From Thalassomonas actiniarum (GTDB lineage Bacteria > Pseudomonadota > Gammaproteobacteria > Enterobacterales > Alteromonadaceae), in NCBI RefSeq assembly GCF_000948975.2, contig NZ_CP059736.1, positions 372,001 through 436,000 on the forward strand: DNA of 64,000 nucleotides. The letters run 5' to 3'. The notes under the pieces were generated by a model that had not been told where the DNA came from, did not search any database, and saw only the letters and a list, made by a program, of their open reading frames with translations. The position numbers and the translations under genes were made by a program. Numbering within the stretch: position 1 is the first letter of the stretch; the number at the start of each line of letters is the position of its first letter. Below are positions 16,031 through 35,124 of the stretch, in pieces.

Positions 16031-16034
16031 CGCG

Positions 16035-16742: not shown

Positions 16743-16757
16743 CTTATACGCTAACCA

Positions 16758-17408
16758 CTACTCTGTTTGATCTACGGTATAAATGGTCCACATCATCTCA
16801 TCCTGATGATCGGTATAGGCCAGCTCTGCCATGATACGGCGGTTAACCGCATGAACCTGTTCACTGTCACCTGTTTGCTCGGGGCGCTTAAAACCAAAAC
16901 CAATCGAGGATACCCGGTACTTAGGAATATTAAAGCTATTGACCAGTACCCGGGCCACGGCTTTGGCACGATTATCCGACAAGGTTTGATTCAGCCCGGT
17001 GCTGCCGGTTTTACTGGTATGTCCTTCAATAACCACGTCTAATGTTTGATGTTTATTCAGAAAATCTGCAAGTTTTTCAATCTCAGCATAGCCGGTATCC
17101 GGGATCTCATAGGAATTATTGGCAAACTTGATATTAATATTAAGCGGTTGGATATTTGCGGTTTGTGTGCCGCAGCCATCATTGTCTATGTTGGCGCCTA
17201 ATACCGTGTCTTTACATTTATCACGTGCTTTGATCACGCCGTCACTATCAAAATCATGTAAATTGTTTACCTGGACAACGCTGGTTTCCATGACGATGAT
17301 CGGAGGCCGTGCGCAAGCACTTATTAGCAATGCCAGCAGGGCTAAGGGGAAAAAACGGATATTTGAACGTTTACTTGCGTGAAGGTTAACAACTTGCCGG
17401 TTATTCAT
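16758..17408 (-). CDS. OmpA-like peptidoglycan-associated lipoprotein of the lap operon
   Basis: The start is the ATG at 17408: AAGGAG lies 6 bases upstream and the ATG overlaps the end of the TolC gene by 8 bases, which suggests translational coupling. A lipobox (LLISACA) marks an outer-membrane lipoprotein. A calcium-binding TSP3-like motif (DFDSDGVIKARDKC) precedes a C-terminal OmpA domain that binds peptidoglycan (EGHTSKTGS, NQTLSDNRAKAV, GFGFKRP). The same gene sits between aggA and bpfG in the bpf operon of S. oneidensis (from memory). A structural role, fixing the secretion channel or adhesin to the cell wall, is inferred. Confidence 0.9.
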   Translation of the reverse strand: MNNRQVVNLHASKRSNIRFFPLALLALLISACARPPIIVMETSVVQVNNLHDFDSDGVIKARDKCKDTVLGANIDNDGCGTQTANIQPLNINIKFANNSYEIPDTGYAEIEKLADFLNKHQTLDVVIEGHTSKTGSTGLNQTLSDNRAKAVARVLVNSFNIPKYRVSSIGFGFKRPEQTGDSEQVHAVNRRIMAELAYTDHQDEMMWTIYTVDQTE

Positions 17409-18798: not shown

Positions 18799-18856
18799 AA
18801 CCATTCCATTTTTTAGTGTTATTGGTTGTCGTTAACTGTTTTACCAGCCCCGGATA

Positions 18857-20230
18857 TTAACCTTCCCTGAGCGCCGCTTTTTTGGCCCTTAAAATCGGGG
18901 TTAAAATATATTCTAAAATGGTGCGTTCTCCGGTGATCACGTCGACATCTGTGAGCATGCCCGGAATGATCGGCATTTCTTCGTTATCTTTATTTTTAAT
19001 GCTGGACGCGTCGGTGCGCACCCGGATCAGGTAAAAGCTGTTGCCTTCTTCATCCTGGGTGGTATCGGCACTGATATGTTCGACTTTGCCGGTTAAACCG
19101 CCATAGCGGGCAAAATCATAGGCGGTAATTTTTACTACCGCAGGCAGGCCGGGATAGATAAACCCTATATCCCTGGGCTTGATTTTCGCTTCCACCATTA
19201 ATTTGTCTTGTGTCGGCACGATTTCGGCTATGGTTTCCCCGGGTTTTACCACCCCGCCTAAGGTGTTTATATGTATGGTTTTTATGGTGCCAACCACAGG
19301 GGAGAGAATAAGTGCCTTGGTGACCTTGTCCTGGGTGCCGACCTGGGCTTCATTCATTTTTGACAGTTTATTTTGCAATTCATTAAGTTCGGCCCGCGCT
19401 TCCCTGCGGTAGGTTAAGGCGCTGTCGCGACGTATTAAGATTGCTTCTTTAAAGGCGGATTTCAGTTTCGGGGTCAATAACCGGATGGCGCTGAGCTCTC
19501 CTTGCAGTTCGTTGACGCTGCGCTCGAGCTTGTATAATTCAATTTTCGAGACGATATTTTTTTGTGCCAGCGGCCGGGTCAACTCAAGCTCTTTACTGGC
19601 CAGGCGGTAACTGATCTCCAGGGTTTTGATTTTTGAGCCTTGCTCGGCGATTTCCTGCTTTCTCTGTTGTATTTGCTGGTTCTGGATGGCGAGTTGATTG
19701 ATTAGATTATCCAGCCGCCCTGAGTATTCCTGTTGTTGCTGCTGCACCATTAACGGTGCCTGGGTATTGAGATCTTGCGGGTACTCGGGCACTTTTTTCG
19801 TGACCTTGATTTGCTGTTGCCAGCTGTCATCTACGCCGATAAAAATACTGGCAAGTTCGGCCCTTAAGCGGATGATATTGGCGCGTAGACTGTTCAGCTC
19901 CTGGTTCTGCTCGGCGACATCCGAGCGAAACCGGGTATCGTCTATGCTGGCAATGGCCTGGCCTTTGCTTACCTGCATGCCTTCCTGGACAAAGAGTTTT
20001 TGCAAGATGCCGCCGTCCAGGCTTTGGATAATCTGTACCTGGGAGGAAGGGATCACTTTGCCCGTGCCGGAGGTAAACTGCTCTAAGGCGGAGAAATGCG
20101 ACCAAAGAATAAAACTCAAGACTAAACCTGCCATGGCCCAAATGGTTAACCGGTGCAAACCCGGCGCCCGGATCAACATGGCGCCATAAACATCGTCCGC
20201 CATGGATAAATCTTGCTGGCTGAGCTTCAT
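18857..20230 (-). CDS. lapC: HlyD-family periplasmic adaptor of the type I secretion system (LapC)
   Basis: A membrane-fusion protein of the usual length (457 residues): a short cytoplasmic N-terminus, one TM at about residues 28-48, a biotinyl-lipoyl half-motif (SLDGGILQKLFVQEGMQV), long coiled coils (about 100-290, rich in Gln and Glu), the second lipoyl half (ILSPVVGTIKTIHINTLGGV) and the C-terminal HlyD beta-barrel domain. It links LapB in the inner membrane to the TolC channel. The ATG overlaps the end of lapB by 4 bases with AAGGTGAG upstream, so the two are translationally coupled. Confidence 0.93.
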   Translation of the reverse strand: MKLSQQDLSMADDVYGAMLIRAPGLHRLTIWAMAGLVLSFILWSHFSALEQFTSGTGKVIPSSQVQIIQSLDGGILQKLFVQEGMQVSKGQAIASIDDTRFRSDVAEQNQELNSLRANIIRLRAELASIFIGVDDSWQQQIKVTKKVPEYPQDLNTQAPLMVQQQQQEYSGRLDNLINQLAIQNQQIQQRKQEIAEQGSKIKTLEISYRLASKELELTRPLAQKNIVSKIELYKLERSVNELQGELSAIRLLTPKLKSAFKEAILIRRDSALTYRREARAELNELQNKLSKMNEAQVGTQDKVTKALILSPVVGTIKTIHINTLGGVVKPGETIAEIVPTQDKLMVEAKIKPRDIGFIYPGLPAVVKITAYDFARYGGLTGKVEHISADTTQDEEGNSFYLIRVRTDASSIKNKDNEEMPIIPGMLTDVDVITGERTILEYILTPILRAKKAALREG

Positions 20231-22386
20231 AGGCTCACCTTTTGTTTTGCCTGTTCGCCAAGCTTTTGTAAAACCAGGTCTTTGGGGCCGTCCATCACTA
20301 ACTTGCCTTTATCCAATACCAGGATGCGGTTTACCAGGTGTAATAACTCCATTTTATGGGTGATCAGCAATAAGGTGCGGTCTTTGGCGGTGGCGCTGAT
20401 AGATTGCATAAACTGTTTTTCCGCACGGGCATCTAAACTGGCGGTAGGCTCGTCCAGCAATAAAATCGGCGGACTGTTCAAAATGGCCCGGGCCAGGGCC
20501 ACTGACTGGCGCTGCCCCCGGGATAAGGCGCGGCCGTTTTCCCCTACCTGCCTGTCTAAGCCTGAGGTTTGCTGATCGGTAAAGGCATGTACGCCGGAAA
20601 GCTGCACCGCCCGGATCAGCTGATATTCGGTGATTTGCCGGGTGCCGAAGAGAATGTTATCGCGTATGGTGCCGTGAAATAAGGTGATGTCCTGGGGGAG
20701 ATAACCCAAATTGCGCCTTAGATCGCCGGGATGGATTTGCTGATGATTGATGCCGTCAAATTGCAGGCTGCCGCTGCTTGGTTGCAGCAGCGAGCACAGC
20801 AGTTTGGCTAAGGTGCTCTTTCCCGAACCATTGCTGCCGACTATGGCTATTTTTTCTCCCTGCCTAATGCTCAGGGAGACTTGTTGTAAACTGGCGCAAT
20901 CGGCATCGGGGTAGGTAAAGCAAAGATTATCCAGGGTGATATTGCCGTTTAACTTGCTGCGGCTGGGCAGATGGGCTTTATCTTCAAACTCCCCCTCCTG
21001 CGCCATGAGCGCATCGAGCTGTTTTAATGCGCTGACGGCCTGGTTGGAGCGGGTCATCAGCCCGGCAAGCTTGGCTATCGGCGCTATGGCCCGGGCGGTT
21101 AACATCACGGCGGCGATAATGCCTCCCATGGAGATCAGGTTATCCGACACCCGGTAAACCCCCAGCACAACAACGCCGACGATGGACACTTGTACGATAA
21201 AACCGGCAAAGTTGATCACCGAGTTAGTGAGCATTTTGGCTTTAAGCAGCCAGCTGGCACTGTGGCCGGTCATTTGCTGCCAGCTATTTTGCACCACCCC
21301 TTCTGCGCCGTTGGCTTTAATCGGTTCAAGCGCGCTTAAGCATTCGACCAAATGGCCGTGGCGCAAGCCGGAAAATTTATTGCTCTGTTCGACTGCCGCG
21401 CGCAGTTTCCCCTGGCAAAAGACGGTATAGCCGATAATCAGTACACAGGCGAGCAGGGGAAATAACACTAAATCGCCGGCAACCAGGTAGATACAGAGCA
21501 TAAACAACACGGCGAAGGGGAAATCTACCAAGGCGCTAACGGTTGCCGAGGACAGGAACTCCCTGATGCTGTCAAATTCGGTGAGCTGCTTTGCCATGCC
21601 GCCGACGCTGGCGGCGCGTTTTTCCAGCGGTATGCCGATGACCTTGGCAAATAATTTCGACGAGATATCGAGATCTATTTTTTTCCCGGCAACATCAATT
21701 AAATAACCGCGTAATTGCTTGAGCACAAAGTCAAAGGTAAAGGCGATGCCCGCCCCTATCGCCAGCACCCACAGGGATTCAAACGCCAGGTTGGGCACTA
21801 CCTTGTCATAAATGTTCATCACAAAAAGCGGCGACACCAGGGCAAAAATGTTCACCATGACCGAGGCAATAAGCACATCGCGGTAGATAGGGGTTGCGCC
21901 TTTTAGATGTTGCCACAGCCAGTGTTCGGCTGAGTTTTGGATATGGACATCAAAATGCCGGTCGCCCCGATAGATCTGCTTGATTAAAAAGAGGTAACCG
22001 ACGAAGCTTTCTTCAAGTTCGGCAACCGTGAGCCGCTGCTCTCCCCCGGTTTCCGGCAGGGAAATAACGGCGCTGTTTTCTGCCGGGCTCAGCTCTTGTA
22101 ATACGCAGGCATCCTTATCTTTGAGCAGCAAGATACAAGGCAGCAGCATGTCGGGTAGCTCATTTAAACCTTTGCGGACCAGTTTGGCGCTTAATCCCCC
22201 GCGGGCGGCGGCTTGCGGCAACAGCTCGGGAGCTAAATCACAGCCGGCTAACGGCAGGCCGGCGGATAAGGCTTCTGCCGAGCAGGGATTGCCAAAGTGC
22301 TGACACAGCAAGACTAAGCTATCGAGCAAGGGGGCTGCTGATAACGGCTGTGAAGCATGAATTGTCCATTGGCTGGTTGATTGCAT
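20227..22386 (-). CDS. lapB: Type I secretion ABC transporter (permease-ATPase) for the adhesin (LapB)
   Basis: An inner-membrane ABC exporter with three parts: an N-terminal C39-like domain (about 1-135) without the catalytic Cys of real C39 peptidases, a six-helix membrane domain (about 155-450), and an ATPase domain with Walker A GSNGSGKST near residue 520, Q-loop YLPQDITLF, signature ALSRGQRQ (R in place of the more usual G), Walker B ILLLDEPTASLD and the H-loop His in LLITHK. Such peptidase-dead exporters move giant adhesins with a C-terminal signal and no cleaved leader. The gene starts 46 bases after the adhesin-like gene and overlaps lapC. Confidence 0.93.
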   Translation of the reverse strand: MQSTSQWTIHASQPLSAAPLLDSLVLLCQHFGNPCSAEALSAGLPLAGCDLAPELLPQAAARGGLSAKLVRKGLNELPDMLLPCILLLKDKDACVLQELSPAENSAVISLPETGGEQRLTVAELEESFVGYLFLIKQIYRGDRHFDVHIQNSAEHWLWQHLKGATPIYRDVLIASVMVNIFALVSPLFVMNIYDKVVPNLAFESLWVLAIGAGIAFTFDFVLKQLRGYLIDVAGKKIDLDISSKLFAKVIGIPLEKRAASVGGMAKQLTEFDSIREFLSSATVSALVDFPFAVLFMLCIYLVAGDLVLFPLLACVLIIGYTVFCQGKLRAAVEQSNKFSGLRHGHLVECLSALEPIKANGAEGVVQNSWQQMTGHSASWLLKAKMLTNSVINFAGFIVQVSIVGVVVLGVYRVSDNLISMGGIIAAVMLTARAIAPIAKLAGLMTRSNQAVSALKQLDALMAQEGEFEDKAHLPSRSKLNGNITLDNLCFTYPDADCASLQQVSLSIRQGEKIAIVGSNGSGKSTLAKLLCSLLQPSSGSLQFDGINHQQIHPGDLRRNLGYLPQDITLFHGTIRDNILFGTRQITEYQLIRAVQLSGVHAFTDQQTSGLDRQVGENGRALSRGQRQSVALARAILNSPPILLLDEPTASLDARAEKQFMQSISATAKDRTLLLITHKMELLHLVNRILVLDKGKLVMDGPKDLVLQKLGEQAKQKVSL

Positions 22387-22432
22387 TAAATGTTCAGTCC
22401 CTGTATAAATCCGGCAAAATTCGTGTTGTTTA

Positions 22433-25400
22433 TTAAGATAAAACGTCCGGTGAGTTTAGTTCGTCTACTGACGGTGCTGTCGGTAAACTTTCACCGGTGA
22501 AGGCAGCGCTTTCGGTCGATAACCCCTGATGGCTATCGATTTGCTCAACATCTTCCTGCCTTGAGCTTTGTTCGCTGGGGACACTGTCTTCTTCACTTTC
22601 TGCCATCGCCGATAAATATTGCTCCAGCGTATTGTCCTGATCCTGCGTTAATATATCCGAGAGTGCTAATGTCTGATGGTGAGTTTCCCCCTCTGGCCCG
22701 TCAATGATTGTCCCGTTGGCGTCATTGACATATACGCCAATCAGGGTTGTATCCGTCAATGTTTGTTCAAGTAAGGGCTGGCTGTCGTGCCCCTGCGTTA
22801 ACGGTTCATGTAATTCCAGTGTTTCTATCGCCGTTTTGGCGAAAGTTAATGTTGCCGGGATCCTGATATCTATGGTCAGGGTGGCGGCATCTATTTCCGG
22901 GTAGACGTTATCCCCGTCTTCGATCTCATAGTCAAAAATAAGCAGCTGATTTTCGCTTGGCATATCCATGATCGCTATGGGCTCAAAGACATATTCTCCC
23001 GAGTTGTGAATCGTTAAGGCGCCATATTCGGTTGGAATTTCAAAACTGGTATTGTCGGCATCAAAGGCATACCAGGTGCCGTCAAAATGAATGCGGCTGA
23101 AGATCACTGTGCCGTCAGGCGAGCTATCGGCCCTGTCTCCCGAGCTCGCCTGGTTGCTGCCGATAATATTTCCCCGGACACTGTGCGCAATGGCTTTGCC
23201 TCCGCCTGCTGCCTGCAGCAAGAGATAGTTAATGTCATAATTGGCTACAGGCGCAGTATCATGTACGTTTATCGTGACCGTGGCTTCATCCTTCATGTCG
23301 CCGTCACTTAAGGTATAATCAAAGCTCGGCGGGTTTGTACCTAAGTGAAAACCGCTGTTTTCATATCTGAATTCGCCGTCGGCCTTAATGTATAACCAGC
23401 CCTCGTCGATAGAAACCCGGGCATAGCCATCGGCACCAAAGCTGAGATCCCTGCCGTTGACTTGGGTGATGCTCAGGAGATCGCCGTCGATATCCCTGTC
23501 GGTGATGCCGTCACCGTCATCATGGCTAATAACATTGCCTGTGACCGTTTCTCCCTGATGAATGCTGAAACTGTCATCGCTGGCCTCAGGGGCGTCATTT
23601 ACTTTCGACACGCTGATGGTTAAGGTGGAGGTATCGGTATTGGAACCGTCCGATACCGTGTAGGTCACGGCCGGAACATCACCGTAAAAGTTACTTGCCG
23701 GTACGAAGGTATAGTGACCGTTGCTGTAAACCGTCAAGGTTCCCTGTTCAAGCTCTGCCGCCTCTCCCGGCTCAAAATCTGTGATTCCGACAGTAAAAGT
23801 TGTCACTTGTGCCGTGCCGTTCGGACTAATGGCATTCGCCAGGAGGTTGCCACTTACCGGCGTATCTTCTTGGGTCGTTACCAACTCATTTGCGTCGGTT
23901 AAATCCGGTATGATCACCAGGGTGAGCGTTGCCGAGTCTGTTTCAGGATGATTGCTGTCGCCGTCTTTGATCTCGTAAGCAAAAACCAGCTCTTGCCGTC
24001 CGGTGGGCATATCCATGCCCTCTGTTGGCTCGAACAGGTATTCACCTGAAATGGCAATGGTCAGTTTGCCGTAGTCGGTTTCAATTAAGAGACTGGTGTT
24101 ACCGCCATCAAAGCTATACCAGCTGCCGTCAAAATGAATGCGGTTGAAGATCACTGTGCCGTCCGGCGAGCTGTCGGCCTGATCTCCCGAACTTGCCTGG
24201 TTATCACCTATGATATTGCCCCGAATGCTGCCGCCACTCGCTTTGCCGCCACTCGCTTTGCCGTCATCGGTGCCTTGCAATAAAAGATAATTTTGATCAT
24301 TATTGGCAACCGGCGCCGAATCAAGCACGTTAATCGTTACGGGAGCGGTATCTATGCTGTCGCCATCGCTTAAGGTGTATTCAAAACTTGGCGGAGTGTC
24401 GCCTAAGATAAAACCGTTATTGCTATAGGTGAAAGCGCCCTGGCGGTTAATGGACAATATACCGCCTTCGATATCAACCTCGGCATCGCCATTGCTGTCA
24501 AAAATCAGATTAGCACCGTTGATTTGAGTGATAGTCAAACTGTTGCCGTCACTGTCGCTGTCGGTGACGCCGTCACCGTCGTCATGGTGAATGATATTTC
24601 CCTCGACAAAACTGCCCTGGTTAACGCTAAAGGTGTCATCGGCTGCCACAGGGGGGGTATTAACTTCGAGCACGTTAATGGTCAGGCTAGAGGTATCGGT
24701 ATTGATACCGTCAGACACGGTATAGGTGACGGCAGGCACATTGCCGTGAAAGTTATTATGGGGAATAAAGGTGTAACTGCCGTTACTGTTGAGGGTTAAT
24801 AACCCCTGCTCAAGTGATGCGGTGGCGCCTATGGAATAACTGGTATTGGCGACGGTAAAGCCGGTGACCTGCGGCGTGCCGTCGCTGCTGGCGGCATTGG
24901 CCAGGACATTGCCGCTGACCGGGCTGTTTTCATTGGTTGTTACCGACTCATTGCCGTCGCTTAAATCTGAGACCGGGATCACGTTAATGGTTAAAGTGGA
25001 AGTATCGTTATTGATGCCGTCAGAGACGGCATAGCGGATAACCGGTACATTGCCGTTAAAATTATCACCGGGGATGAAGGCATAGCTGCCGTCACTGTTA
25101 AGGGTTAACACACCTTCTTCAAGTGTTGCCGAGGCTCCTGCAGCAAAGTTGGTGTTATTGACGATAAAACCGGTGACTTCGGGTATGCCGTCGGCACTGG
25201 CGGCATTATCCAGCACATTGCCGTTTATTGTCGTATCTTCATTGGTGCTGAGGGTTTCATCTTCGTCGCTTAAGTCAGAAACCGGGAGCACTTCAATGGC
25301 TAAGGTGGATGTTTCGGTATTTATGCCGTCAAACACGGTATAAGTGACGATAGGTACATCACCGTTATAATTTTCACCGGGAATAAAGGAGTAGCTGCCG

Positions 25401-27004
25401 TCACTGTTAAGGGTTAATACACCTTCTTCAAGTGTTGCCTGGGTCCCTGCTGCAAAGTTGGTGTTATTGACGATAAAACCTGTGACTTCGGGTATGCCGT
25501 CGGCACTGGCGGCATTGGCCAGCACATTGCCGTTTATGGGTGTATCTTCATTGGTGCTGACGGTTTCATCTTCATCGCTTAAGTCAGAAACCGGGAGCAC
25601 TTCAAGGGTTAAGGTGGATGTTTCGGTATTTATGCCGTCAAACACGGTATAGATGACAATTGGTACATCACCGTTAAAATTTTCACCGGGAACAAAGGAG
25701 TAGCTGCCGTCACTGGTAAGGGTTAACACACCTTCTTCAAGTGTTGCCGAGGCTCCTGCTGTAAAGTTGGTGTTATTGACGATAAAACCGGTGACTTCAG
25801 GTATGCCGTCTGTGCTGGAAGCATTGGCCAGCACATTACCGTTTATGGGCGTATCTTCATTGGTAGTGGCCGTTTCATCCGCATCGCTCAGATCTGAAAC
25901 CGGCAGTACTTCTATGGCCAGGGTGGAGGTATCGGTATTTGGTCCGTCAGAGACAGTATAAGCGACATCCGGCACATCGCCGTTGAAATTATCCGCGGGA
26001 ATAAAGGTATAGCTGCCGTCCCTGTTAAGGGTTAATGCCCCCTGTTCGATGATGGCTGTGGTGCCTGCTTCAAAGTCGGTGCCTGCCAGGGTAAAACTGA
26101 GCACTTCGGGAATACCGTCGCTACTGGCGGCATTGGCCAGGACATTGCCGCTTAGCGCTGTGTCTTCATTGGTGCTGGCCGATTCATCCTCATCGCTGAG
26201 ATCTGAAACCGGGGTCAGGGTGATGGTTAAGGTATCGCTTGCGTTGGTATTGGTGGTATAGCTGACAACCGGTAAAGTACCGTTCCAGTTTGCGGCAGGA
26301 ATAAAGCTATAACTGCCGTCGTTATTTATCGTTAAACTGCCTCCTTCGACAATTGCCGTTTGGCCGCCGGCATAAACAGTGGTATCACCGTCCACGGTAA
26401 AAAATTGCACGGTTAAGATATCATCGCCATCGCTGTCGTTATCAAGCACATTACCGGTGACGGTTTGATCTTCCCCGGCAATGTTTTCATCGCTTTGGGT
26501 AATAGTGGGCTGTGATGAACCGGACTGGGGGTTATCTCTGGGCAGCAGGCTGTTTTCTTGCTCTGTGGTGTCATAACCTGCCCGGGCAAGGGTTTCATTG
26601 CCGGTTCTGTCTAAGGTAACAAAATTGGTGCCTTCATTGCCGGTTAGCCCCCCGGCTGCGGTATCAGGCAATTCGATATCATCACCGGATTCAATAAGAT
26701 CTTGCAGCGCGGCAATGTCATCGATAGCGCTATCTGCTGTTTGATTAACCGGGAGCGTACCTGCAGCAAGGGCTGGTGCTGTTTTTGGGGCTGAATTATC
26801 CGCTTGCTCTGCAAGGCTGGTGTCTTGCTGGCTGCCGGCATCAGCAAATGCCAAAGTTGTTTCATTGTTTTTTACCGGGTCCGGTAAATGATCGGCTTTA
26901 ATATCACCACCGGTGTGCGGTGTTAGCTTTTCACCCGGCCCGGAACTGCTTTCACCACTATGAGCTATTTCCGGGGCATTTTTTGACGTGCCGTTCTCTT
27001 CCAT
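22433..27004 (-). CDS. LapA/BpfA-like repetitive adhesin, atypical ends
   Basis: An acidic 1523-residue protein at the head of the lap operon. Residues 1-95 are low-complexity (Ser, Glu, Gly) and do not look like the beta-rich plug of LapA retention modules. Residues about 95-150 do match the end of that module: a helix (IDDIAALQDLIESGDD), the LapG-type site TAAG at 115-118, then TNFVTLDRTGNETLARAGYD. Most of the rest is cadherin-like/tandem-95 repeats with a 103-residue period. RTX repeats are absent; near the C-terminus, LALSDILTQDQDNTLEQYL resembles the last part of type I secretion adhesin tails, but the final 60 residues diverge. There is no TM segment. The ATG at 27004 has only a weak AGGG 10 bases upstream. 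The protein may be a small LapG substrate or a worn adhesin. Confidence 0.8.
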   Translation of the reverse strand: MEENGTSKNAPEIAHSGESSSGPGEKLTPHTGGDIKADHLPDPVKNNETTLAFADAGSQQDTSLAEQADNSAPKTAPALAAGTLPVNQTADSAIDDIAALQDLIESGDDIELPDTAAGGLTGNEGTNFVTLDRTGNETLARAGYDTTEQENSLLPRDNPQSGSSQPTITQSDENIAGEDQTVTGNVLDNDSDGDDILTVQFFTVDGDTTVYAGGQTAIVEGGSLTINNDGSYSFIPAANWNGTLPVVSYTTNTNASDTLTITLTPVSDLSDEDESASTNEDTALSGNVLANAASSDGIPEVLSFTLAGTDFEAGTTAIIEQGALTLNRDGSYTFIPADNFNGDVPDVAYTVSDGPNTDTSTLAIEVLPVSDLSDADETATTNEDTPINGNVLANASSTDGIPEVTGFIVNNTNFTAGASATLEEGVLTLTSDGSYSFVPGENFNGDVPIVIYTVFDGINTETSTLTLEVLPVSDLSDEDETVSTNEDTPINGNVLANAASADGIPEVTGFIVNNTNFAAGTQATLEEGVLTLNSDGSYSFIPGENYNGDVPIVTYTVFDGINTETSTLAIEVLPVSDLSDEDETLSTNEDTTINGNVLDNAASADGIPEVTGFIVNNTNFAAGASATLEEGVLTLNSDGSYAFIPGDNFNGNVPVIRYAVSDGINNDTSTLTINVIPVSDLSDGNESVTTNENSPVSGNVLANAASSDGTPQVTGFTVANTSYSIGATASLEQGLLTLNSNGSYTFIPHNNFHGNVPAVTYTVSDGINTDTSSLTINVLEVNTPPVAADDTFSVNQGSFVEGNIIHHDDGDGVTDSDSDGNSLTITQINGANLIFDSNGDAEVDIEGGILSINRQGAFTYSNNGFILGDTPPSFEYTLSDGDSIDTAPVTINVLDSAPVANNDQNYLLLQGTDDGKASGGKASGGSIRGNIIGDNQASSGDQADSSPDGTVIFNRIHFDGSWYSFDGGNTSLLIETDYGKLTIAISGEYLFEPTEGMDMPTGRQELVFAYEIKDGDSNHPETDSATLTLVIIPDLTDANELVTTQEDTPVSGNLLANAISPNGTAQVTTFTVGITDFEPGEAAELEQGTLTVYSNGHYTFVPASNFYGDVPAVTYTVSDGSNTDTSTLTISVSKVNDAPEASDDSFSIHQGETVTGNVISHDDGDGITDRDIDGDLLSITQVNGRDLSFGADGYARVSIDEGWLYIKADGEFRYENSGFHLGTNPPSFDYTLSDGDMKDEATVTINVHDTAPVANYDINYLLLQAAGGGKAIAHSVRGNIIGSNQASSGDRADSSPDGTVIFSRIHFDGTWYAFDADNTSFEIPTEYGALTIHNSGEYVFEPIAIMDMPSENQLLIFDYEIEDGDNVYPEIDAATLTIDIRIPATLTFAKTAIETLELHEPLTQGHDSQPLLEQTLTDTTLIGVYVNDANGTIIDGPEGETHHQTLALSDILTQDQDNTLEQYLSAMAESEEDSVPSEQSSRQEDVEQIDSHQGLSTESAAFTGESLPTAPSVDELNSPDVLS
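22890..24640 (-). repeat. Large duplicated segment, two copies 1047 bp apart
   Basis: The stretches at about 22890-23590 and 23930-24640 carry the same order of motifs (DD.FS..QG, DDGDG.TD, YTLSDGD, NYLLLQ, GNIIG.NQASSGD.AD, SSPDGTVIF.RIHFDG). The same point of each copy lies at 23091 and 24138, which is 1047 bases apart. One 103-residue unit sits between them, so a block of about 1 kb was probably duplicated whole. Confidence 0.75.
24660..26203 (-). repeat. Five tandem 309-bp repeats encoding 103-residue cadherin-like units
   Basis: Five units each begin with a DLSD.(E/D)E..(S/T)TNE motif and end with an .I.V..VS strand. The spacing on DNA is 309 bases for most units and about 303 for one. 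The middle units are nearly identical at the DNA level, for example around 25149, 25458 and 25767, so they can exchange or change number by recombination. A sixth, more divergent unit lies at about 23590-23910. Confidence 0.85.
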
Positions 27005-28224: not shown

Positions 28225-28779
28225 CTACTTGCAGCGTAAATGTTCTGCTATCTGAATAAGCCAGTAACTCAACGGCTTACAGGTCATTTGGGGGAGTTTA
28301 CCGCTGTCGTCGAGCGTGCGTAAGGTGAGGATATCTTTTAAGTGTGCAATTTTCTGATAGTTTTCCACCTCTTGTGCAGTCATGGCCCCTCCCTGCTGCG
28401 TCAGGGTTATTTTGCTGGCATGGGATAATTGCTCAAGATATCCCGGTTGGCTGGCGGCTAAATAGCGTTTCACCTTAACATGCTCTTTTACCAGCATGAC
28501 AATGCGCCTGGAAAAACCGTGTTTTGCCAAAAAGGCGGCGCCGATATTATCATGTGCCGGGTGGCCAAAGTCGGTGAAACCTTTAGTATTATTGCGCTGG
28601 GCAATGAAGTGCCCTATGTCATGTAAAAAAGCTGCCAATGCCAGCTCATCATCAAAACCCTGCTCAATCGCCAGGGTGCCGCATTGCTGCGCATGTTGCA
28701 GCTGGCTGCACTTTTCTTCATATGTCTGGCTGCCGTAGTCCAGATAAAGCGCTTCGATTTCTTTAATAATGTCACTCAT
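28225..28779 (-). CDS. HD-domain protein of the PhnZ-like phosphonate oxygenase type
   Basis: A soluble 184-residue protein. Metal ligands fit an HD-domain di-iron oxygenase: His29 in QLQHAQ, His53-Asp54 in FLHDIGH, His76 in PAHDN and His100 in KEHVKVKR, with nearly the same spacing as in PhnZ. The stretch LSHASKITLTQQGGAMTAQE matches the family hallmark around LS.AS...L..QGG. PhnZ cleaves the C-P bond of hydroxylated 2-aminoethylphosphonate. Tyr20 and Glu22 lie where PhnZ has its Tyr24/Glu27 pair, but the spacing differs by one, so the exact substrate is open. No PhnY-like hydroxylase is in the window. The neighbour, divergently transcribed, is a membrane transporter. Confidence 0.75.
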   Translation of the reverse strand: MSDIIKEIEALYLDYGSQTYEEKCSQLQHAQQCGTLAIEQGFDDELALAAFLHDIGHFIAQRNNTKGFTDFGHPAHDNIGAAFLAKHGFSRRIVMLVKEHVKVKRYLAASQPGYLEQLSHASKITLTQQGGAMTAQEVENYQKIAHLKDILTLRTLDDSGKLPQMTCKPLSYWLIQIAEHLRCK

Positions 28780-28824
28780 AACAACTTTAATACCCTGGCC
28801 AGGTTCAGATCACATCGACGGTTT

Positions 28825-28838
28825 TTGGTATATACCAA
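28825..28838. promoter_or_regulatory. GntR/HutC-type operator-like palindrome 1
   Basis: TTGGTATATACCAA is a perfect 14-base palindrome, 46 bases upstream of the start of the HD-domain gene. Its core TGGTATA.ACC resembles sites of HutC-subfamily GntR repressors such as PhnF (TGGTATAGACCA). Confidence 0.7.
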
Positions 28839-28917
28839 CTTGGGGTGTAGTCTATTGAACTTTATTTCCCTGTACAAGCCGTTAGCAGGCTTGGTCATAA
28901 AAACTTCATAATCAACC

Positions 28918-28929
28918 TGGTATATACCA
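28918..28929. promoter_or_regulatory. GntR/HutC-type operator-like palindrome 2
   Basis: TGGTATATACCA is a perfect 12-base palindrome with the same core as the site at 28825. It lies 62 bases upstream of the transporter start; the two centres are 92 bases apart. Each promoter of the divergent pair thus has one copy. Confidence 0.7.
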
Positions 28930-28991
28930 CAATATTTCTGTCATAAAGTTTCGCTAGGCTAGTGGCTTTTTAACAATGACATGAGCAGAAT

Positions 28992-30290
28992 ATGAAGCGA
29001 ATCTCCCTGTGGTTAAGCCAATGCAGCACGCTGTGGTTCACGGTTTATGCGACCATGGCCGCCTTTATGACCTACTTTTCCATGTATGCCTTTCGTAAAC
29101 CTTTTACTGCCAGCAATTATGATGGCATGGCGGATTTTTCTTACGGCATTGATTTCAAAACTGCCTTGATCTTATCGCAAGTACTCGGTTATGCCCTGTC
29201 GAAATTTATCGGCATTAAGGTGATCTCTGAAATGAATGCCGGTCGTCGGGCGCTGGCGATTTTAACCTTGGTGATGATCGCTGAACTTGCCCTGGTGCTG
29301 TTTGCTCTCGTGCCGTCGAACTGGAAATTATTGACCTTGTTTTTAAACGGTCTGCCTCTTGGCATGATCTGGGGTCTGGTGTTCAGCTTTTTGGAAGGGC
29401 GGCGGGTTTCAGAAATTTTAGGCGCCGGCTTAAGCGTCAGTTTTATTGTTTCCTCCGGGGTGGTTAAAAGCGTGGGTCAATGGTTGATGCTCAGCCACGG
29501 GATCAGCGAGTTTTGGATGCCGGCCATCACCGGAGCGGTATTCACCCTGCCCTTGTTTGTCTCGGTATTCTTTTTAATGCAAATTCCTAAACCTTCGCCG
29601 CAGGACATTGCTGCACGGCATGAACGAAAACCCATGGACGGTAAAGCCCGTAGGGCATTTTTTATTAAATATGCCCCGGGGTTAATCGCCTTGATCCTCA
29701 CCTATATGTTATTAACCGGCATCCGTGATTACACCGATAATTTTGCCGCCGAGCTATGGTCGAGTTTGGGCTTTGGCAATACACCGGCGATATTTTCCAG
29801 CGCGGCCCTTTATACCTCGCTTTTTATCTTGCTGACTTTAAGCCTGTTGATGTTTGTGAAAAACAATATGCGTGCCTTTATGGCCAACCATGTCTTTATC
29901 TTTATCGGCATTGCGGTCATAGGGTTAAGTACCCTGGCTTATCAGGGCGGTTATTTGTCCGGCCAGGCATGGATGATCGCCCATGCTACCGGAATTTATC
30001 TTGCCTATATCCCCTTTAATTGCCTGCTGTTTGATCGCATGCTGTCGGTGATCAACGATAAAGGCAATGCCGGTTTTTTGATTTATCTTGCCGATGCCAT
30101 GGGTTATGCCGGCAGTGTCGGTATTCTGCTTTATAAAAGCTTTTTTGATGTTGAGCTTAGCTGGCTGAATTTTATGATCAGCAGCTCATATTTGATCAGC
30201 ATAACCGGTTGCACTCTGGTATTAATTTCGGCCTGGTATTTTGATGTTAAAGTGATGAAACCTTTGAGCTTGCAGCCACAACTCGGCTAG
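28992..30290 (+). CDS. MFS-like membrane transporter, DUF5690 type
   Basis: A 432-residue polytopic protein with about 12 predicted membrane helices. The start resembles DUF5690 proteins (TVYATMAAFMTYFSMYAFRKPF, shortened here to its key parts YATMAAF and FRKPF) and the glycerol-3-phosphate/organophosphate branch of the MFS. Charged or polar spots in helices include LTGIRDYTDNFAAELW. The pairing with a PhnZ-like oxygenase and shared operator-like sites suggests uptake of a phosphonate or related organophosphorus compound; this is an inference. The ribosome site is weak (GAGCAG). No soluble binding protein or ATPase is adjacent, so it would be a secondary carrier. Confidence 0.8.
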   Translation: MKRISLWLSQCSTLWFTVYATMAAFMTYFSMYAFRKPFTASNYDGMADFSYGIDFKTALILSQVLGYALSKFIGIKVISEMNAGRRALAILTLVMIAELALVLFALVPSNWKLLTLFLNGLPLGMIWGLVFSFLEGRRVSEILGAGLSVSFIVSSGVVKSVGQWLMLSHGISEFWMPAITGAVFTLPLFVSVFFLMQIPKPSPQDIAARHERKPMDGKARRAFFIKYAPGLIALILTYMLLTGIRDYTDNFAAELWSSLGFGNTPAIFSSAALYTSLFILLTLSLLMFVKNNMRAFMANHVFIFIGIAVIGLSTLAYQGGYLSGQAWMIAHATGIYLAYIPFNCLLFDRMLSVINDKGNAGFLIYLADAMGYAGSVGILLYKSFFDVELSWLNFMISSSYLISITGCTLVLISAWYFDVKVMKPLSLQPQLG

Positions 30291-30486
30291 CGCGTTAAAT
30301 TAATTGATGTTGTGATCACAGGACAAGTAGCTGTAACTTGTTGGTCGGCAACAATAACTGCATCGTGAGATGAGCATTAACCTGTCAGGGTAGCAAGTTG
30401 TTACCCATGATGCATTTACAGGGGGATTTTTGGGTGGCTTATCAGCCTTTGATAAAATAGTGAAGATTTTTCAAAGGCCAGAAAGC

Positions 30487-30807
30487 AAAAATGCAACTCA
30501 AAAGAGTCGCATTTTCTTAACTAGCTTAGCGCATCCTGCACTTATTTAGTGTCCGCATTCTATCCTGAATTTCCTTGAACAACCTGTCCCTAGTTCATTT
30601 TCGTGACTCCTGTCACTTCCATATCCCTTCCCGGGTCATGCACCTTCCCGATGCATACCCATATTACTGCGGGTTCCAAGCTATCCTATGCTGTTCGGTC
30701 TCCCTGACCGGCATACTTCCGTGTATTACTTCCTTTGTGACTTCCTGCCACCTGACTTTATCCTAAAGTCTTCCTTGTAGAGCTTCCTGCCCTGTGTCGT
30801 CCTGACA
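30487..30807 (-). ncRNA. csrB: CsrB-like regulatory RNA that would sequester CsrA
   Basis: On the minus strand this 320-base stretch carries about 20 GGA motifs, many as AGGAAG, AGGA or GGGA in the loops of small hairpins, for example GTGACAGGAGTCAC. It ends in a strong rho-independent terminator. That density and layout is the hallmark of CsrB/RsmY-type RNAs, which bind many CsrA dimers and free their target mRNAs. A TAATAT box at 30814-30819 suits a start near 30807. A UvrY/GacA-like palindrome lies about 180 bases upstream, at the distance known for csrB of E. coli. No protein frame in the stretch is credible. In the cell it would promote biofilm and stationary-phase programmes under BarA/UvrY control. 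Confidence 0.87.
30488..30515 (-). terminator. Terminator of the CsrB-like RNA
   Basis: On the minus strand AAAATGCGACTC pairs with GAGTTGCATTTT (one G-U pair) around a TTTT loop, and the 3' side ends in TTTTT. Confidence 0.9.
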
Positions 30808-30813
30808 AAGGTA

Positions 30814-30819
30814 ATATTA
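30814..30819 (-). promoter_or_regulatory. -10 box of the CsrB-like RNA
   Basis: TAATAT on the minus strand lies about 7 bases before the proposed 5' end. There is no good -35 hexamer, as expected for a promoter that needs an activator. Confidence 0.5.
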
Positions 30820-30882
30820 CGCGAATGTAATTATATTATTAGGTTGGTGTTGTTAAATTTTTTTTGTATTCTGATTCGCCAT

Positions 30883-30900
30883 ACACTCTTATATGAGTGT
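30883..30900. promoter_or_regulatory. Dyad upstream of the CsrB-like RNA
   Basis: ACACTC-N6-GAGTGT is a perfect 6-bp dyad about 85 bases upstream of the proposed start. It may be a protein site; I cannot name the protein. Confidence 0.35.
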
Positions 30901-30977
30901 TTATTGTTTATTATCATGTCTTTAGGTTGGATTTATCAAAAGTCATTGACAAAAAATACCTTTATCTCGCACCTCTT

Positions 30978-30995
30978 TGTGAGACATCTCTTACA
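30978..30995. promoter_or_regulatory. UvrY/GacA response-regulator box
   Basis: TGTGAGACATCTCTTACA differs at one central base from the 18-base UvrY site published for E. coli csrB (TGTGAGAGATCTCTTACA, from memory). Its centre is about 180 bases upstream of the proposed RNA start, similar to the distance in E. coli. Confidence 0.8.
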
Positions 30996-31675
30996 TCATA
31001 GGGTAACATTCAGACATAGATGACAAATATCGTTTGTTATTCAGGAAGAGATTTTACGTTACTAAGAGAATTTCCTTTATCGACCACTGCTGGAGTGCGC
31101 TGATTAATTATTCTGTTTCAGGATGAGCAAGCAGTGCTGGGCAGTATTAACGCTCCTCCCATCCAAGCCTATGCATTATAAGGGCAGATAACGCATCATT
31201 TTAAGCACGGTATTCAACAATACCGCTCCCAGCCTTGATGGCTTTTTGAAAATCGGCAATGTCGAGATGCAAATAGATTGTTGATGCCCATAAGTATCTT
31301 CATCAGGTGATGTAATATCGGGTAATACAATTTATTAGCCCATAAGTTATATTCCTTCTCGCATAAACAAAGTTGACACTATTTTTTTATATATTTGTTA
31401 CATAATTCCTTGTCATGATGAATTTTTCGATTGAGGGGGTAATGCGTTAATAAATTTTTGTACAGATGAGCAGAATGTCAGCTTTATTTGCAATTTTAAA
31501 ATATGACAAACCAGAAAACATTAAAAGCATTTAAAATCAGTAGTTTAAATGCTTGGTGTATGTATTGCTAACCAAGTTGTTACAGCAAGGAAGCCCTTAA
31601 ATATCATCTGCTTACGTGGGGTTCTCTTGTTGTTTTAAAACCATATCTATGTTTTTAACATTTACAGGAAGAAGA
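30996..31675. other. Long intergenic region, no supported gene
   Basis: About 680 bases between the UvrY-like box and the next gene. Frames are short and interrupted. Some parts (31080-31320) have coding-like GC content and might be an old gene remnant, but I cannot assign them. The promoter of the PEP-CTERM gene at 31676 must be here; a TTGACA at 31373-31378 lacks a clear partner -10. Confidence 0.4.
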
Positions 31676-32392
31676 ATGAAAAAATTAAAAGTAAAAGGGA
31701 TGTCCATTAAAGGAATCATCACCGCGACCGCCTTGTGTCTGGCTAGCTCCAACGCGTTGGCAGCTATGATAACGGTTGAAGATAGTTTTGGGGTTATGGG
31801 CAGTAGCACGGCAATGGACGTTGGCCAAGAATCGGCAATATTATCAATTGCTGGTTTTAATTCCAGCTTAGGAACCTTAACAGGCGTTAGTCTTACTGCT
31901 TATGGTCAAATTAACGCTACCGGAACTTCACAAAATAATACTTCAGAGAATGGCAATACCGTTGCTACCTTAGGGACAATAGGAAGCTGGGGGGTCATTT
32001 CGGCAGTCACCCATGACTTTGTCTTTACTCGAGGCTCCAGCTTTCTTGACGCTGCTGAAAGTTCGGACTCGGGAGATTATGATATGGCTCCGGGAGAGAT
32101 TTTTAGCTTCGATATGGGGAGTGAGAGAAGTGGTGATATGTCGATCATTGACTATTCAGCCTTCACTACCGATGGGATGATTGATTTTAGATTTGATTTT
32201 AGAGCAGAGACGGTTATCCGTAACTTTATTGGCTCAGGTAGAGAAACTTTTACCAATACCTCCAATACCGGTGCCTGGGGGAAAATAGTGGCAACTTATA
32301 CCTATGATGCAGCACCAGTGCCAGAGCCGGGAGCTTTGATTCTTTTGACTGCTGGTTTATTAGGTTTGGGTTTACGTCGTAAGCAGGGGTAG
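31676..32392 (+). CDS. PEP-CTERM sorting-domain protein, 238 residues
   Basis: The ATG at 31676 is preferred to the frame's far start at 31616 because AGGAAGAAG precedes it and the protein then begins with a normal signal peptide (MKKLKVKG, hydrophobic core, cleavage near ALA-AM). The mature domain (about 180 residues, Ser/Gly/Thr-rich, beta-like) is of unknown function. The tail PVPEPGALILLTAGLLGLGL followed by RRKQG is a clear PEP-CTERM anchor. It has its own terminator about 100 bases downstream. Confidence 0.9.
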   Translation: MKKLKVKGMSIKGIITATALCLASSNALAAMITVEDSFGVMGSSTAMDVGQESAILSIAGFNSSLGTLTGVSLTAYGQINATGTSQNNTSENGNTVATLGTIGSWGVISAVTHDFVFTRGSSFLDAAESSDSGDYDMAPGEIFSFDMGSERSGDMSIIDYSAFTTDGMIDFRFDFRAETVIRNFIGSGRETFTNTSNTGAWGKIVATYTYDAAPVPEPGALILLTAGLLGLGLRRKQG

Positions 32393-32843
32393 TATTTTCC
32401 AGTTAGCTGGTATTTTTTAACAAGGTCAAACTGGATAAATCCTGTTATCGTTATCGGCCAATGTTACTGGCTGGTAAAATTGTTATCACAAAAGCACCCC
32501 AGGGTGCTTTTTTGTATGTGTCGAAAAAATTTAACTCAAGTCCGGTTGCATTTAAAACCTATCTTCTGAAAGTGCTCCCCTTCTTTAACGCCAATTTTCA
32601 TATACCTTGCCGGCCCCCTGTCCCGATAATCAAGACTGTTGTTGGAATATTTTACAATCAGGCGGCCAGAAAAGCCTGGTAAGGGCCTTAACATGTTGGA
32701 CTTGTTTGTTTTTATTAAGCAGGCATGAATTATGCCCTCCTTCTAAAGCCTGTCTTATCGTTCATACATACCAATTTATGCATTACCTGTTTGTTATGCG
32801 CAAACAAGACAGGGCATGTCACTTGATAATGAGGAATGCTATT
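32393..32843. other. Intergenic region with a terminator and the promoter of the next PEP-CTERM gene
   Basis: Apart from the hairpin at 32491-32513 I see no feature. The frame of the following gene stays open upstream to 32607, but that extension is Cys-rich, has no ribosome site and would destroy the signal peptide, so I treat it as non-coding. Confidence 0.5.
32491..32513 (+). terminator. Terminator of the PEP-CTERM gene at 31676
   Basis: AAAGCACCC and GGGTGCTTT form a perfect 9-bp stem with a very short CA loop, followed by TTTTTT on the plus strand. Confidence 0.85.
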
Positions 32844-33683
32844 ATGCCCAGGAAAAACAAGATGTTATCATTTCTATCAGTCAAATTTTCAACACAGTTA
32901 CTCAAGATCCCTACGTTAAAAGGAGCATTTGCGGCATGGTTGCTGATGTTTTGCTCACCGCTGTCCGCCACGATAATCATGGCCGGATCTGACTATCTTG
33001 AAACCACCGCCGGAACCTTTTTGGACTTTAGCTTTCCAGGCTCACCCATGCCTGAAATAGGTATTGTTGATTTTATCGGTGACCCGGCTGGCCCGGGTAA
33101 TACCGATACCCTGGTCAGGCGTCTGGATGATGCCGTGCTGCCGGGAGAAGGCTCTTCAGATACTATCGACGTAGAGCTGGTGGCGCTATCTTTAGCTAGC
33201 GCTGATCCCGTTGATATCGGCGGAACGGATTTTGATTTGTCTATTGCGCTTACGCCCACCATGCCTTCGCTGGGGCAATTAACCCTGACGTTGGATGATG
33301 AAGCCGCTGTATCCGGGAGCTTCGAGTCCTTTTTTGATGTCTTCGTTGATATCCGTTTTTTTGTCGCCGACACTGACATTCTGGTGGAAACTATTACAGC
33401 ACTTCCGCTGTTAGGTTTACATGGACTTGGCCAATGGCAGCAAACCCCAGCTCCCGATACCGTGATTGTCTCTGGCAGTTATGGTGATATTAATGCCAAT
33501 CAACATATACCGCCTTCAGATGAATATGCTGATTTTTTTATTACCGAAATTGTTGAAGTACAGCCCGGTTTGGGAGAGCACAGGTTGCAGCAGGCCACTG
33601 TGCCTGAACCTGCAAGCGTTATTTTGCTGTCTCTGGGGCTTTTAGCAATAACATTTACAGGAAAAAGAAAAGTTATGCACTGA
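32844..33683 (+). CDS. PEP-CTERM sorting-domain protein, 279 residues
   Basis: The ATG at 32844 is chosen because TGAGGA lies 8 bases before it. A rather late hydrophobic segment (FAAWLLMFCSPLSATIIMA) serves as signal peptide after a basic stretch. The mature part is acidic (many Asp, Glu), has no Cys and may bind calcium, but matches no family I know. The tail TVPEPASVILLSLGLLAITF plus GKRK is a PEP-CTERM anchor. It follows another PEP-CTERM gene on the same strand but is separated from it by a terminator. Confidence 0.85.
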   Translation: MPRKNKMLSFLSVKFSTQLLKIPTLKGAFAAWLLMFCSPLSATIIMAGSDYLETTAGTFLDFSFPGSPMPEIGIVDFIGDPAGPGNTDTLVRRLDDAVLPGEGSSDTIDVELVALSLASADPVDIGGTDFDLSIALTPTMPSLGQLTLTLDDEAAVSGSFESFFDVFVDIRFFVADTDILVETITALPLLGLHGLGQWQQTPAPDTVIVSGSYGDINANQHIPPSDEYADFFITEIVEVQPGLGEHRLQQATVPEPASVILLSLGLLAITFTGKRKVMH

Positions 33684-33734
33684 CACGGCAGATAAAATTT
33701 GTTCAGCGGTTAAGGCGCTGAATGTATGCTTCGG

Positions 33735-33782
33735 GTACACCAGAAATTCAACAACCCAATAATAAGACTTTCTCTGGTGTAC
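33735..33782. repeat. Inverted repeat after the PEP-CTERM gene
   Basis: GTACACCAGA at 33735-33744 pairs perfectly with TCTGGTGTAC at 33773-33782 across 28 bases. No T run follows; function unknown. Confidence 0.5.
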
Positions 33783-33903
33783 GCTAAGTAAATACCATAC
33801 CGGACGAGCGTTTATTGGCCTGCTATTGAAAAACTAATTGTCAGTAAAGTACTTAAATTTCAGCAAGCTCCCCTGGGGTATTGGCACTATCAAAGTTTCC
33901 CCT

Positions 33904-35124
33904 TTATTTATTCTCCACTTTAAAGACAAATAAAGCATCCTTCTCGGCTGCTGTCAGCAAAAGATGGCGACCGTCAGGGGTAAGGTTAACGGAGGAGATC
34001 CCGCTCAGGTTATCAATCGGTTTGTCTTTATTTGGCAGTCGGCTGATAAGCTTGAGTTGCCCGTCTGCCTGTTTTTGAAATAAAATTAAACCTGTATCGG
34101 CTTCACCTGCCGCATATATCAAAGTGCCGCCTGACGACACAGCCAGGCTGCCCGCCCCCTTTAAGCCGCCACCAATCTCTTTATTGCTGATAGCCTGTAA
34201 AAAGGCATAACGGCCATTTTCGGCTTTTTTAAAGACAACAAGAGAATGGCTGCTGGAGCAAGCTACATATAAAAAATTTCCGTCAGGCGACACAACTATT
34301 TTTTGTGGATTCAAAAACTGCTCTACACCGTTCCGTCCATTTTGCAAAAGCTGTTTCGCCGATAAATTGCCATTTTTATCCCGGTCAAAAATGGTCAGTT
34401 TGTGCTCTTCAAAACCAAGCACAAATAATTCTTTATTTGAGGGAGATAATGCCAGGCCTGTCGGGTTTCCTAAGCCACCGGCAGATGCCACGCCTGTGGT
34501 AATGAAGCGCCTAAAGACAACTTGTTTATCCGGAGTAATATCAAATACAGAAACAGCATTACTCTTATAGTCGGTAACAAACAGCTGCTTATTATCGCTT
34601 GTATTAATCAGCTCCCAGGCTCCCAATAATCCCAGGGTATCCAGATCGCCAACAGTTTTTTTGTTGCCAAAAACCCTTCGAATACTCAGGCCGTCAGAGA
34701 TTGTTTTATCTAAATGGTAGCGATCCTGCCCGCGCGAAAAGACGGATAGGGAGCCGTCATAAAAACTGCTAACAATGGCTTTATCACCCTTGTTTAATAA
34801 GGCCACTGCCGAGGCTCCCTCTAAACCACTAACGGCTGGATTGGCATTTTTAAATATCTGGCTAAAACTTAAATTGAAGTGCTGATCAAGGTTAAATACG
34901 GCAAAGGCATTATCATCACCGCTAACGACAAAAACCCGGGAGTTATCTGCCGTCACGGCTGTGGCCCTGGGATTATCCAGACCATCGACGCCGTTAACAT
35001 CATCTTTTAATACCTGGATCAGTCTAAGTTCAACCGCTTCGGATGCTGCGGCGACAGAATTGTTTGCATTTGCTGTCGAACATGTAATGAGGAACGGCAA
35101 AACCAGTATTTTTACTATGCCCAT
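33904..35124 (-). CDS. Exported beta-propeller protein (lactonase/YncE-like)
   Basis: A signal peptide (cleavage near residue 21, ANA-NN) precedes about seven repeats of the YncE/6-phosphogluconolactonase-like propeller, each with a pattern such as NPTGLALSPSNKELFVLGF, VVSPDGNFLYVACSSS or VNLTPDGRHLLLTAA. Such proteins are periplasmic or outer-surface; many are scaffolds without known enzyme activity. No catalytic set can be claimed here. The ATG at 35124 has AGGA 10 bases upstream. It stands alone on the minus strand; a hairpin lies between it and the next gene upstream. Confidence 0.82.
   Translation of the reverse strand: MGIVKILVLPFLITCSTANANNSVAAASEAVELRLIQVLKDDVNGVDGLDNPRATAVTADNSRVFVVSGDDNAFAVFNLDQHFNLSFSQIFKNANPAVSGLEGASAVALLNKGDKAIVSSFYDGSLSVFSRGQDRYHLDKTISDGLSIRRVFGNKKTVGDLDTLGLLGAWELINTSDNKQLFVTDYKSNAVSVFDITPDKQVVFRRFITTGVASAGGLGNPTGLALSPSNKELFVLGFEEHKLTIFDRDKNGNLSAKQLLQNGRNGVEQFLNPQKIVVSPDGNFLYVACSSSHSLVVFKKAENGRYAFLQAISNKEIGGGLKGAGSLAVSSGGTLIYAAGEADTGLILFQKQADGQLKLISRLPNKDKPIDNLSGISSVNLTPDGRHLLLTAAEKDALFVFKVENK

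Follow-up and report, generated by a model that had tools for sequence, protein, structure and literature searches.

In Thalassomonas actiniarum, a bacterium living in symbiosis with marine invertebrates, the minus strand of the replicon pTact, between about positions 30807 and 30487 of the window (the whole 64-kb stretch of DNA that was analysed, positions 372001–436000 of contig C2), very probably encodes a CsrB-type small RNA, referred to here as copy d, which would act in the BarA-UvrY-Csr circuit. An earlier note had proposed a CsrB-like RNA with a UvrY/GacA box at this place, and the proposal is upheld by the density of GGA motifs, the alignment to the Rfam CsrB model (RF00018), the box itself and the circuit proteins found in the genome. 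In the gammaproteobacteria, RNAs of the CsrB type determine how active one of the most far-reaching post-transcriptional regulators is, and copy d was confirmed to be ordinary in kind, a further member of this well-known class of CsrA-titrating RNAs. Its noteworthy feature may be its home on a replicon that can possibly be lost.

The locus contains the following features, given in window coordinates.

28992–30290, plus strand: gene for a DUF5690 membrane protein (Pfam PF18943, 525 bits), downstream of copy d and converging with it
30487–30807, minus strand: probable CsrB-type sRNA gene, copy d, of approximately 321 nt, its 5′ end placed from the −10 box and its 3′ end from the terminator
30487–30516, minus strand: rho-independent terminator, a hairpin in which a U tract is paired with an A tract (13 pairs in the stem of the minimum free energy fold)
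30814–30819, minus strand: probable −10 box, TAATAT
30962–30971, minus strand: second element, a half-site (TGCGAGATAA) at a distance of 24 bp from the box's first base, matching TGTRAGATAT at 8 of 10 positions
30978–30995, minus strand: UvrY/GacA box of 18 bp, TGTAAGAGATGTCTCACA (plus-strand letters TGTGAGACATCTCTTACA), with 7 of 9 mirrored positions pairing by eye
31616–32392, plus strand: gene for a PEP-CTERM protein (Pfam PF07589, 26 bits), upstream of copy d and divergent from it

Copy d stands alone in a 1.3-kb intergenic gap, between one gene that ends at 30290 and another that starts at 31616. On the minus strand from 30490 to 30810, 20 GGA and no TCC triplets were counted in 321 nt, in agreement with the approximately 20 in 320 bases noticed before, against a mean of 3.5 GGA per 320 nt on the same strand, where the next best 320-nt stretch holds 11. 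The maximum on the plus strand of the window was likewise 11 per 320 nt, and 50 random 64-kb sequences generated by a first-order Markov model reached 15 at most. The region folds at −95.4 kcal/mol (z −5.26), with none of 100 shuffled sequences equally stable. The strong terminator and the TAATAT box of the earlier note were both found, at 30516–30487 and 30819–30814, and the span it had singled out (30487–30995) begins precisely where the terminator ends and stops at the outer edge of the UvrY/GacA box. By eye, the sequence GTA[AT]TATT is shared at the −10 position by all four copy groups, a to d, and no −35 element was seen before copy d. A simple scanner, which needs a −35 element for a promoter, lists neither TAATAT nor the copy d hairpin, its lone minus-strand promoter-like site (30939–30910) being one found against 2.0 expected by chance and its lone terminator-like site lying on the plus strand at 30883–30900. 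Four marks of the Csr/Rsm class are present: a stand-alone intergenic gene with a Rho-independent terminator, many GGA motifs in loops predicted to be single-stranded, a UvrY/GacA box about 180 bp upstream with the spacing seen in Escherichia coli, and CsrA, UvrY/GacA and BarA/GacS in the same genome.

No Rfam family matched within the 64-kb window at gathering thresholds. In a permissive search, RF00018 aligned end to end (model positions 1–356) with 30827–30479 on the minus strand, at 57.0 bits (E 1.1e-14) against a curated gathering score of 71 bits, for which reason copy d is assigned to the Csr/Rsm class instead of being counted among curated RF00018 matches. The check with Rfam covariance models proposed in the earlier note gave a whole-length match to the CsrB model, the match itself being weak and under the threshold. 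Across the whole genome the model returned copy a (66.2 bits), copy d and copy b (31.7 bits), and no match attained the gathering score; copy c was absent from the match list and was recovered by DNA similarity. Annotation by the Rfam cut-off alone would therefore miss all four of the CsrB-type genes with a box that T. actiniarum contains, three of which are chromosomal, leaving copy d as the only one found on the secondary replicon. The chromosomal copies, in coordinates of contig C1, are as follows.

C1:4532392, chromosome: copy a
C1:4757325, chromosome: copy b
near C1:4755700, chromosome, 1.6 kb from copy b: copy c

The proteins of the circuit are likewise encoded on the chromosome, all of them scoring over curated cut-offs. 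A single csrA match was obtained (C1:5285734, 91.4 bits), with a frame of 65 amino acids. The uvrY gene (C1:2967794, 406 bits) was the sole one of 104 matches above the cut-off of 280, its frame having a TTG start and running open to a TAG stop, and barA (C1:1150802, 1194 bits) was the sole one of 81 matches above the cut-off of 890.

The 18-base palindrome pointed out previously about 180 bases upstream was located at 30978–30995. The centre of this box lies approximately 180 bp before the start of copy d as placed from the −10 box, and 191 bp separate its first base from the first CAGGA; for E. coli csrB the box centre has been placed at −183/−182 (PMC4682653). In all 14 copies found in the four Thalassomonas genomes, 187–191 bp separate the start of the box from the first CAGGA. 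A variant box, TGTGCG, is present in three of the four b copies. When the pattern TGTAAGANATNTCNNACA was searched in the whole genome, the three places found with no mismatch all preceded CsrB-like genes, as did four of the six found with up to one mismatch, while GGA density was low around the two other one-mismatch sites (at most 9 per 300 nt). Up to two mismatches gave 40 matches against 25 for a backward control, which indicates that looser matches are largely due to chance. A UvrY-box-like site with one mismatch (AGTAAGAGATTTCGCACA) is seen at C1:4907972–4907989 (L041 1501–1518), with no GGA-rich RNA nearby and with what by eye seems to be a GGDEF-type gene downstream on the reverse strand.

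Alignment of the T. actiniarum locus with that of T. viridans pTvir recovered two blocks, 30952–30995 (44 bp, with the box) and 30468–30864 (promoter and RNA), and no alignment was found for the DNA between the box block and the promoter. Within the conserved 44-bp block, after the box, lies the half-site. It was dropped as a candidate for a new element, as an element TGTAGGAGA has already been described 5 bp downstream of the box in csrB of E. coli and Salmonella (PMC4682653). A species-wide scan with one genome per species (84,980 genomes) for a box, spacer and CAGGANG returned at least 127 places; among the matches listed, 59 of 127 had at least 14 GGAs in the next 300 nt, a limit set after inspection of the match list, and 49 had at most 8. 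The half-site comparison did not include the other 19, in which the count was 9–13 GGAs or the stretch was truncated by the locus end. A half-site score of 9 or 10 out of 10 was reached at 40 of the 59 CsrB-like places among the matches listed, while a shifted offset gave 0 of 59 and the listed places with few GGAs gave 1 of 49; this score is partly circular since the consensus TGTRAGATAT was picked by eye from the within-family box-pattern matches. The control region of E. coli csrB contains an IHF site, and an IHF-like site between box and promoter was absent in 14 of 16 copies, including copy d, and found in 2. It should also be noted that csrB1 of Vibrio tasmaniensis has the box yet is independent of VarS/VarA (PMC6262261), so the box alone does not prove control.

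The RNA body was compared among copies. The copy d orthologue in T. viridans is 84% identical and retains 18 of the 19 GGAs of the body, compared with 121 of 239 other triplets. This preference was also observed in further comparisons, with 14 of 19 GGAs against 69–84 of 242 other triplets kept relative to the four a copies, 12 of 19 against 57–63 of 242 relative to the four b copies, and 11 of 19 against 50 of 242 relative to the sequence from G032. The earlier description of the GGAs as lying in many cases inside small hairpins agrees with the predicted fold, in which the mean unpaired probability is 0.84 for GGA against 0.44 for all bases and 17 of 20 GGAs have all three bases mostly unpaired; among the 26 triplets occurring at least 5 times GGA ranks highest in this mean, the overlapping GAA being next at 0.83. 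For the other 11 sequences of the set, GGA is unpaired at 0.71–0.85, with 10–17 GGAs exposed likewise. Covariation was assessed in 12 sequences (three d, four a, four b and G032, the c copies being left out), and 56 pairs in 11 helices were obtained with 98.2% of cells paired and changes on both sides in 15 of the 56, counts that are favoured by the structure having been derived from the same alignment. None of 500 shuffles matched this covariation on four of five measures, while the fifth, further pair types, was not unusual (97 of 500 shuffles), and structures that were slid along the alignment fell to a paired fraction of 30–47%. The terminator corresponds to helix 11, which is paired in 12 of 12 sequences and shows an A-U to G-C change in five.

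By analogy with the known family, copy d would be transcribed and activated by UvrY, and its RNA would bind and titrate CsrA. In such a scheme UvrY phosphorylated through the kinase BarA would bind the box approximately 180 bp upstream and switch on copy d, the resulting RNA of about 320 nt would present approximately 20 GGA sites, mostly in loops, and the binding of many CsrA dimers to these would free the mRNAs targeted by CsrA. The alternative that copy d is a silent or decaying duplicate, carried on the secondary replicon with no function of its own, draws on the existence of three chromosomal siblings, on the fact that T. haliotis manages without copy d and on the report that sibling CsrBs are mostly redundant in V. 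tasmaniensis (PMC6262261). It is nevertheless considered improbable in view of the retention of GGAs over other triplets as far as T. viridans, the conservation of the box block and promoter but not of the intervening DNA, and the covariation of the helices across copies a, b, d and G032. A protein-coding reading, with a small gene on one strand or the other, is more improbable still. Two plus-strand ORFs, both with a TTG start, could be put forward for it, of 63 amino acids (30575–30766) and 59 amino acids (30844–31023), but d orthologues differ by single-base insertions and deletions both inside and outside the span of the first ORF, which speaks against the conserved protein frame that would have contradicted the RNA, most of that part of the second which lies between the promoter and the box block is unaligned in T. 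viridans, and the changes that have occurred track RNA pairs and spare GGAs. The idea of a GGA-rich minisatellite, prompted by tandem arrays elsewhere in the genome which match RF00018 weakly (13–24 bits), can be set aside as the least likely of all, given that Tandem Repeats Finder reports nothing at 30487–30807, that 57 bits are spread across the whole CsrB model and that the box, the promoter and the terminator are all in place and have been conserved.

These arrays account for the RF00018 matches at C1:4558421, 5694081, 5694289, 1025578 and 1385183, which were rejected as csrB genes; another match at C1:5020426 (9.5 bits, E 7.6) had at most 11 GGA per 300 nt around it and was judged by GGA density alone. 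One array lies at C1:5694080–5694640 on the minus strand (L009 1500–2060) with 7.4 copies of a 59-bp unit, and further ones were seen at L008 1530–1740, L010 1500–1700 and L011 1530–1680, all of them intergenic, rich in CAGGA/ACGGA resembling CsrA sites and scoring 13–24 bits against the CsrB model. Array copy number varies between species, and for the array at C1:5694080 partial matches alone were found in the three other Thalassomonas genomes, which fits minisatellites; such CAGGA/ACGGA arrays could be decoys or plain minisatellites. A genome-wide second class of CsrA decoys made of GGA-loop hairpins was also considered and rejected, no enrichment being present in a sample of 20 stretches of 19,900 bases (398,000 of 7,494,638), where GGA ranked 55th, 63rd and 61st by rate among the 64 triplet loops with stems of 4, 5 and 6 and where only two clusters of at least three GGA hairpins were found. 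Within the 64-kb window 14 hairpins with a GGA loop and a 5-bp stem were counted, the median for all 64 triplets being 22.

The earlier note had suggested looking for the same RNA in related genomes, and d orthologues were recovered in T. viridans and in Thalassomonas sp. RHCl1 (G002). The latter contains copies a, b, c and d, T. haliotis a, b and c, and T. viridans a, b and d. Neither the 8 kb surrounding copy b of T. viridans nor a strict-pattern search yielded a copy c there, and copy d is missing from T. haliotis, a genome without a chromid. As one of four, copy d may be regarded as one of several CsrA antagonists, as had been supposed, whereas its being the main one is unsupported. A strict box-spacer-CAGGA pattern, run on 147 genomes of the family, matched 33, the four Thalassomonas genomes having two or three boxes each and the other 29 at most two, counts that are lower bounds because the pattern misses variant boxes such as the TGTGCG of three b copies. 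Two box and CAGGA places less than 1 kb apart were observed in each of two contigs of Colwellia metagenome-assembled genomes (L068 and L101), probably tandem csrB genes, the second of L068 being cut by the end of the locus.

A maximum-likelihood tree was constructed from 56 RNAs, of which two rows repeat sequences already in the set, with places below the GGA and spacing limits left out. Copies a and d were separated from b and all others with an ultrafast bootstrap of 100, and a, b and d from all others with 99, while many deeper nodes were weak (down to 27), the alignment of distant RNAs being uncertain. From these sequences we infer that copy d and the chromosomal copy a arose by duplication. 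Either the a/d split would predate the species of the genus or d would come from an unsampled near relative, and T. haliotis would have lost copy d or never had it. Copy d is syntenic on T. viridans pTvir, where the surroundings align over 28243–30290 on the side of the DUF5690 gene and over 32639–35032 on the far side. Thalassomonas sp. RHCl1 aligns over nearly the whole of the surroundings, with its copy d on a contig of 622,620 bases in a 40-contig draft.

As to the neighbouring genes, the DUF5690 gene is syntenic in T. viridans and Thalassomonas sp. RHCl1, its protein having no match in T. haliotis, and for the PEP-CTERM gene (31616–32392) no aligned block was found in T. viridans. An HD-domain protein adjoins the DUF5690 protein (28225–30290), and this stretch aligns with pTvir together with copy d. 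The LapD, LapG and diguanylate cyclase genes listed earlier as neighbours proved real by Pfam matches to LapD (PF16448, 141.9 bits), a LapG-type protease (PF06035, 55.6 bits) and a GGDEF protein (148 bits). A Lap-type adhesin locus, comprising LapD, the LapG-type protease, an OmpA-like protein by eye and type I secretion parts, is located on this secondary replicon at 14084–27004 of the window and includes an adhesin of 1523 amino acids with Big/cadherin repeats, in which a 309-bp repeat is present in 5.0 copies. CsrB-type RNAs act in trans, so closeness to the Lap and GGDEF genes says nothing, and a regulatory link between copy d and the Lap genes on grounds of proximity was rejected.

The contig carrying copy d, C2, has 937,696 bases and C1 has 6,556,942, the sizes given for the T. 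actiniarum chromid pTact and chromosome (PMC9860883, Table 2); the same source gives 6,726,747 and 1,218,661 for T. viridans and pTvir and, for the chromid-free T. haliotis, 6,450,155. The Thalassomonas chromids are reported to carry the bulk of the secondary-metabolism genes, to be possibly megaplasmids and to be largely unrelated at the nucleotide level, yet with some regions in common (PMC9860883). Spontaneous loss of pTvir during routine culture has been reported (PMC9860883), and copy d may on this account be a megaplasmid-borne lever on the CsrA of the host. It is tentatively suggested, as a possibility rated below an even chance, that copy d acts as a megaplasmid RNA sponge which, only in the presence of pTact or pTvir, increases the amount of CsrA antagonist, loosens repression by CsrA and couples the replicon, with its reported secondary-metabolite genes, to the BarA-UvrY-Csr switch. 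The location of copy d provides a natural experiment on the question whether a global regulator of the host is tuned by extra replicons through RNA dosage.

A CsrB gene on a secondary replicon was also considered as a feature without precedent, a claim weakened by csrB-like DNA on large plasmid records of the Vibrionaceae, in view of which the secondary location of copy d is not unique. A Vibrio csrB query against the plasmid collection matched eight records of Vibrio and Photobacterium (H8–H15; csrB-like by sequence) of 0.6–2.1 Mb, with 14–80% query coverage; of the two inspected, one had no annotated feature at the match, and the tables of the collection carry no RNA genes. An Enterobacter csrB query matched seven records, four of 4.8–5.4 Mb (chromosome size) and three enterobacterial ones of 0.57–0.73 Mb. 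In the one of these three that was inspected, csrB is flanked by syd and yqcC, with queF and truC close by, and the record looks like a chromosomal stretch misfiled as a plasmid. Queries with Pseudoalteromonas, Colwellia and Shewanella sequences and with copy d gave no match in the plasmid collection, and copy d gave none in the phage collection, both of which may omit records of this genome and of its near kin. Among the papers searched none names both Thalassomonas and csrB, and a weak literature search that paired csrB or CsrA antagonists with plasmids or secondary replicons, judged mostly from titles and the openings of abstracts, returned no plasmid- or chromid-borne CsrB.

Csr sRNAs from marine relatives have already been published, as have sibling CsrBs, the box and the half-site (PMC6262261, PMC4682653, PMC3171408, PMC11882849), and copy d can be compared with these systems. 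It is like CsrB of E. coli and Salmonella (RF00018) in the number of GGAs, the hairpins, the terminator and the end-to-end fit to the model, E. coli CsrB having 22 GGAs (as quoted in PMC11882849), and their csrB genes have the 18-bp box and the second element likewise (PMC4682653). It is unlike E. coli CsrB in its score below the gathering score, in that no IHF-like site was found and in its position on a secondary replicon. V. tasmaniensis also has four siblings, CsrB1–4, which were duplicated and moved and each of which has a VarA/UvrY box (PMC6262261), but they belong to another sequence clade; the words chromosome and replicon are absent from the main text of that paper. In Pseudoalteromonas fuliginea, a marine relative, the Csr sRNAs Pf1, Pf2 and Pf3 contain 25, 21 and 9 GGAs, and active promoters, a CsrA gel shift and a glycogen assay have been reported for Pf2 and Pf3, although all three differ from copy d in lying on the first chromosome (PMC11882849). 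CsrB1 and CsrB2 of Shewanella oneidensis, whose transcripts were measured in uvrY and barA mutants, share the upstream box (TGTAAGN6CTTACA) and differ in being two adjacent copies with a transposase gene between them (PMC3171408). The closest parallel for the suggested role of the replicon is RsmQ, a plasmid-borne homologue of CsrA/RsmA by which a plasmid acts on the Csr/Rsm network of its host (PMC9928087). RsmQ is a protein, whereas pTact carries an antagonist RNA, and if the megaplasmid sponge were real, copy d would be the RNA mirror image of such plasmid-borne CsrA homologues.
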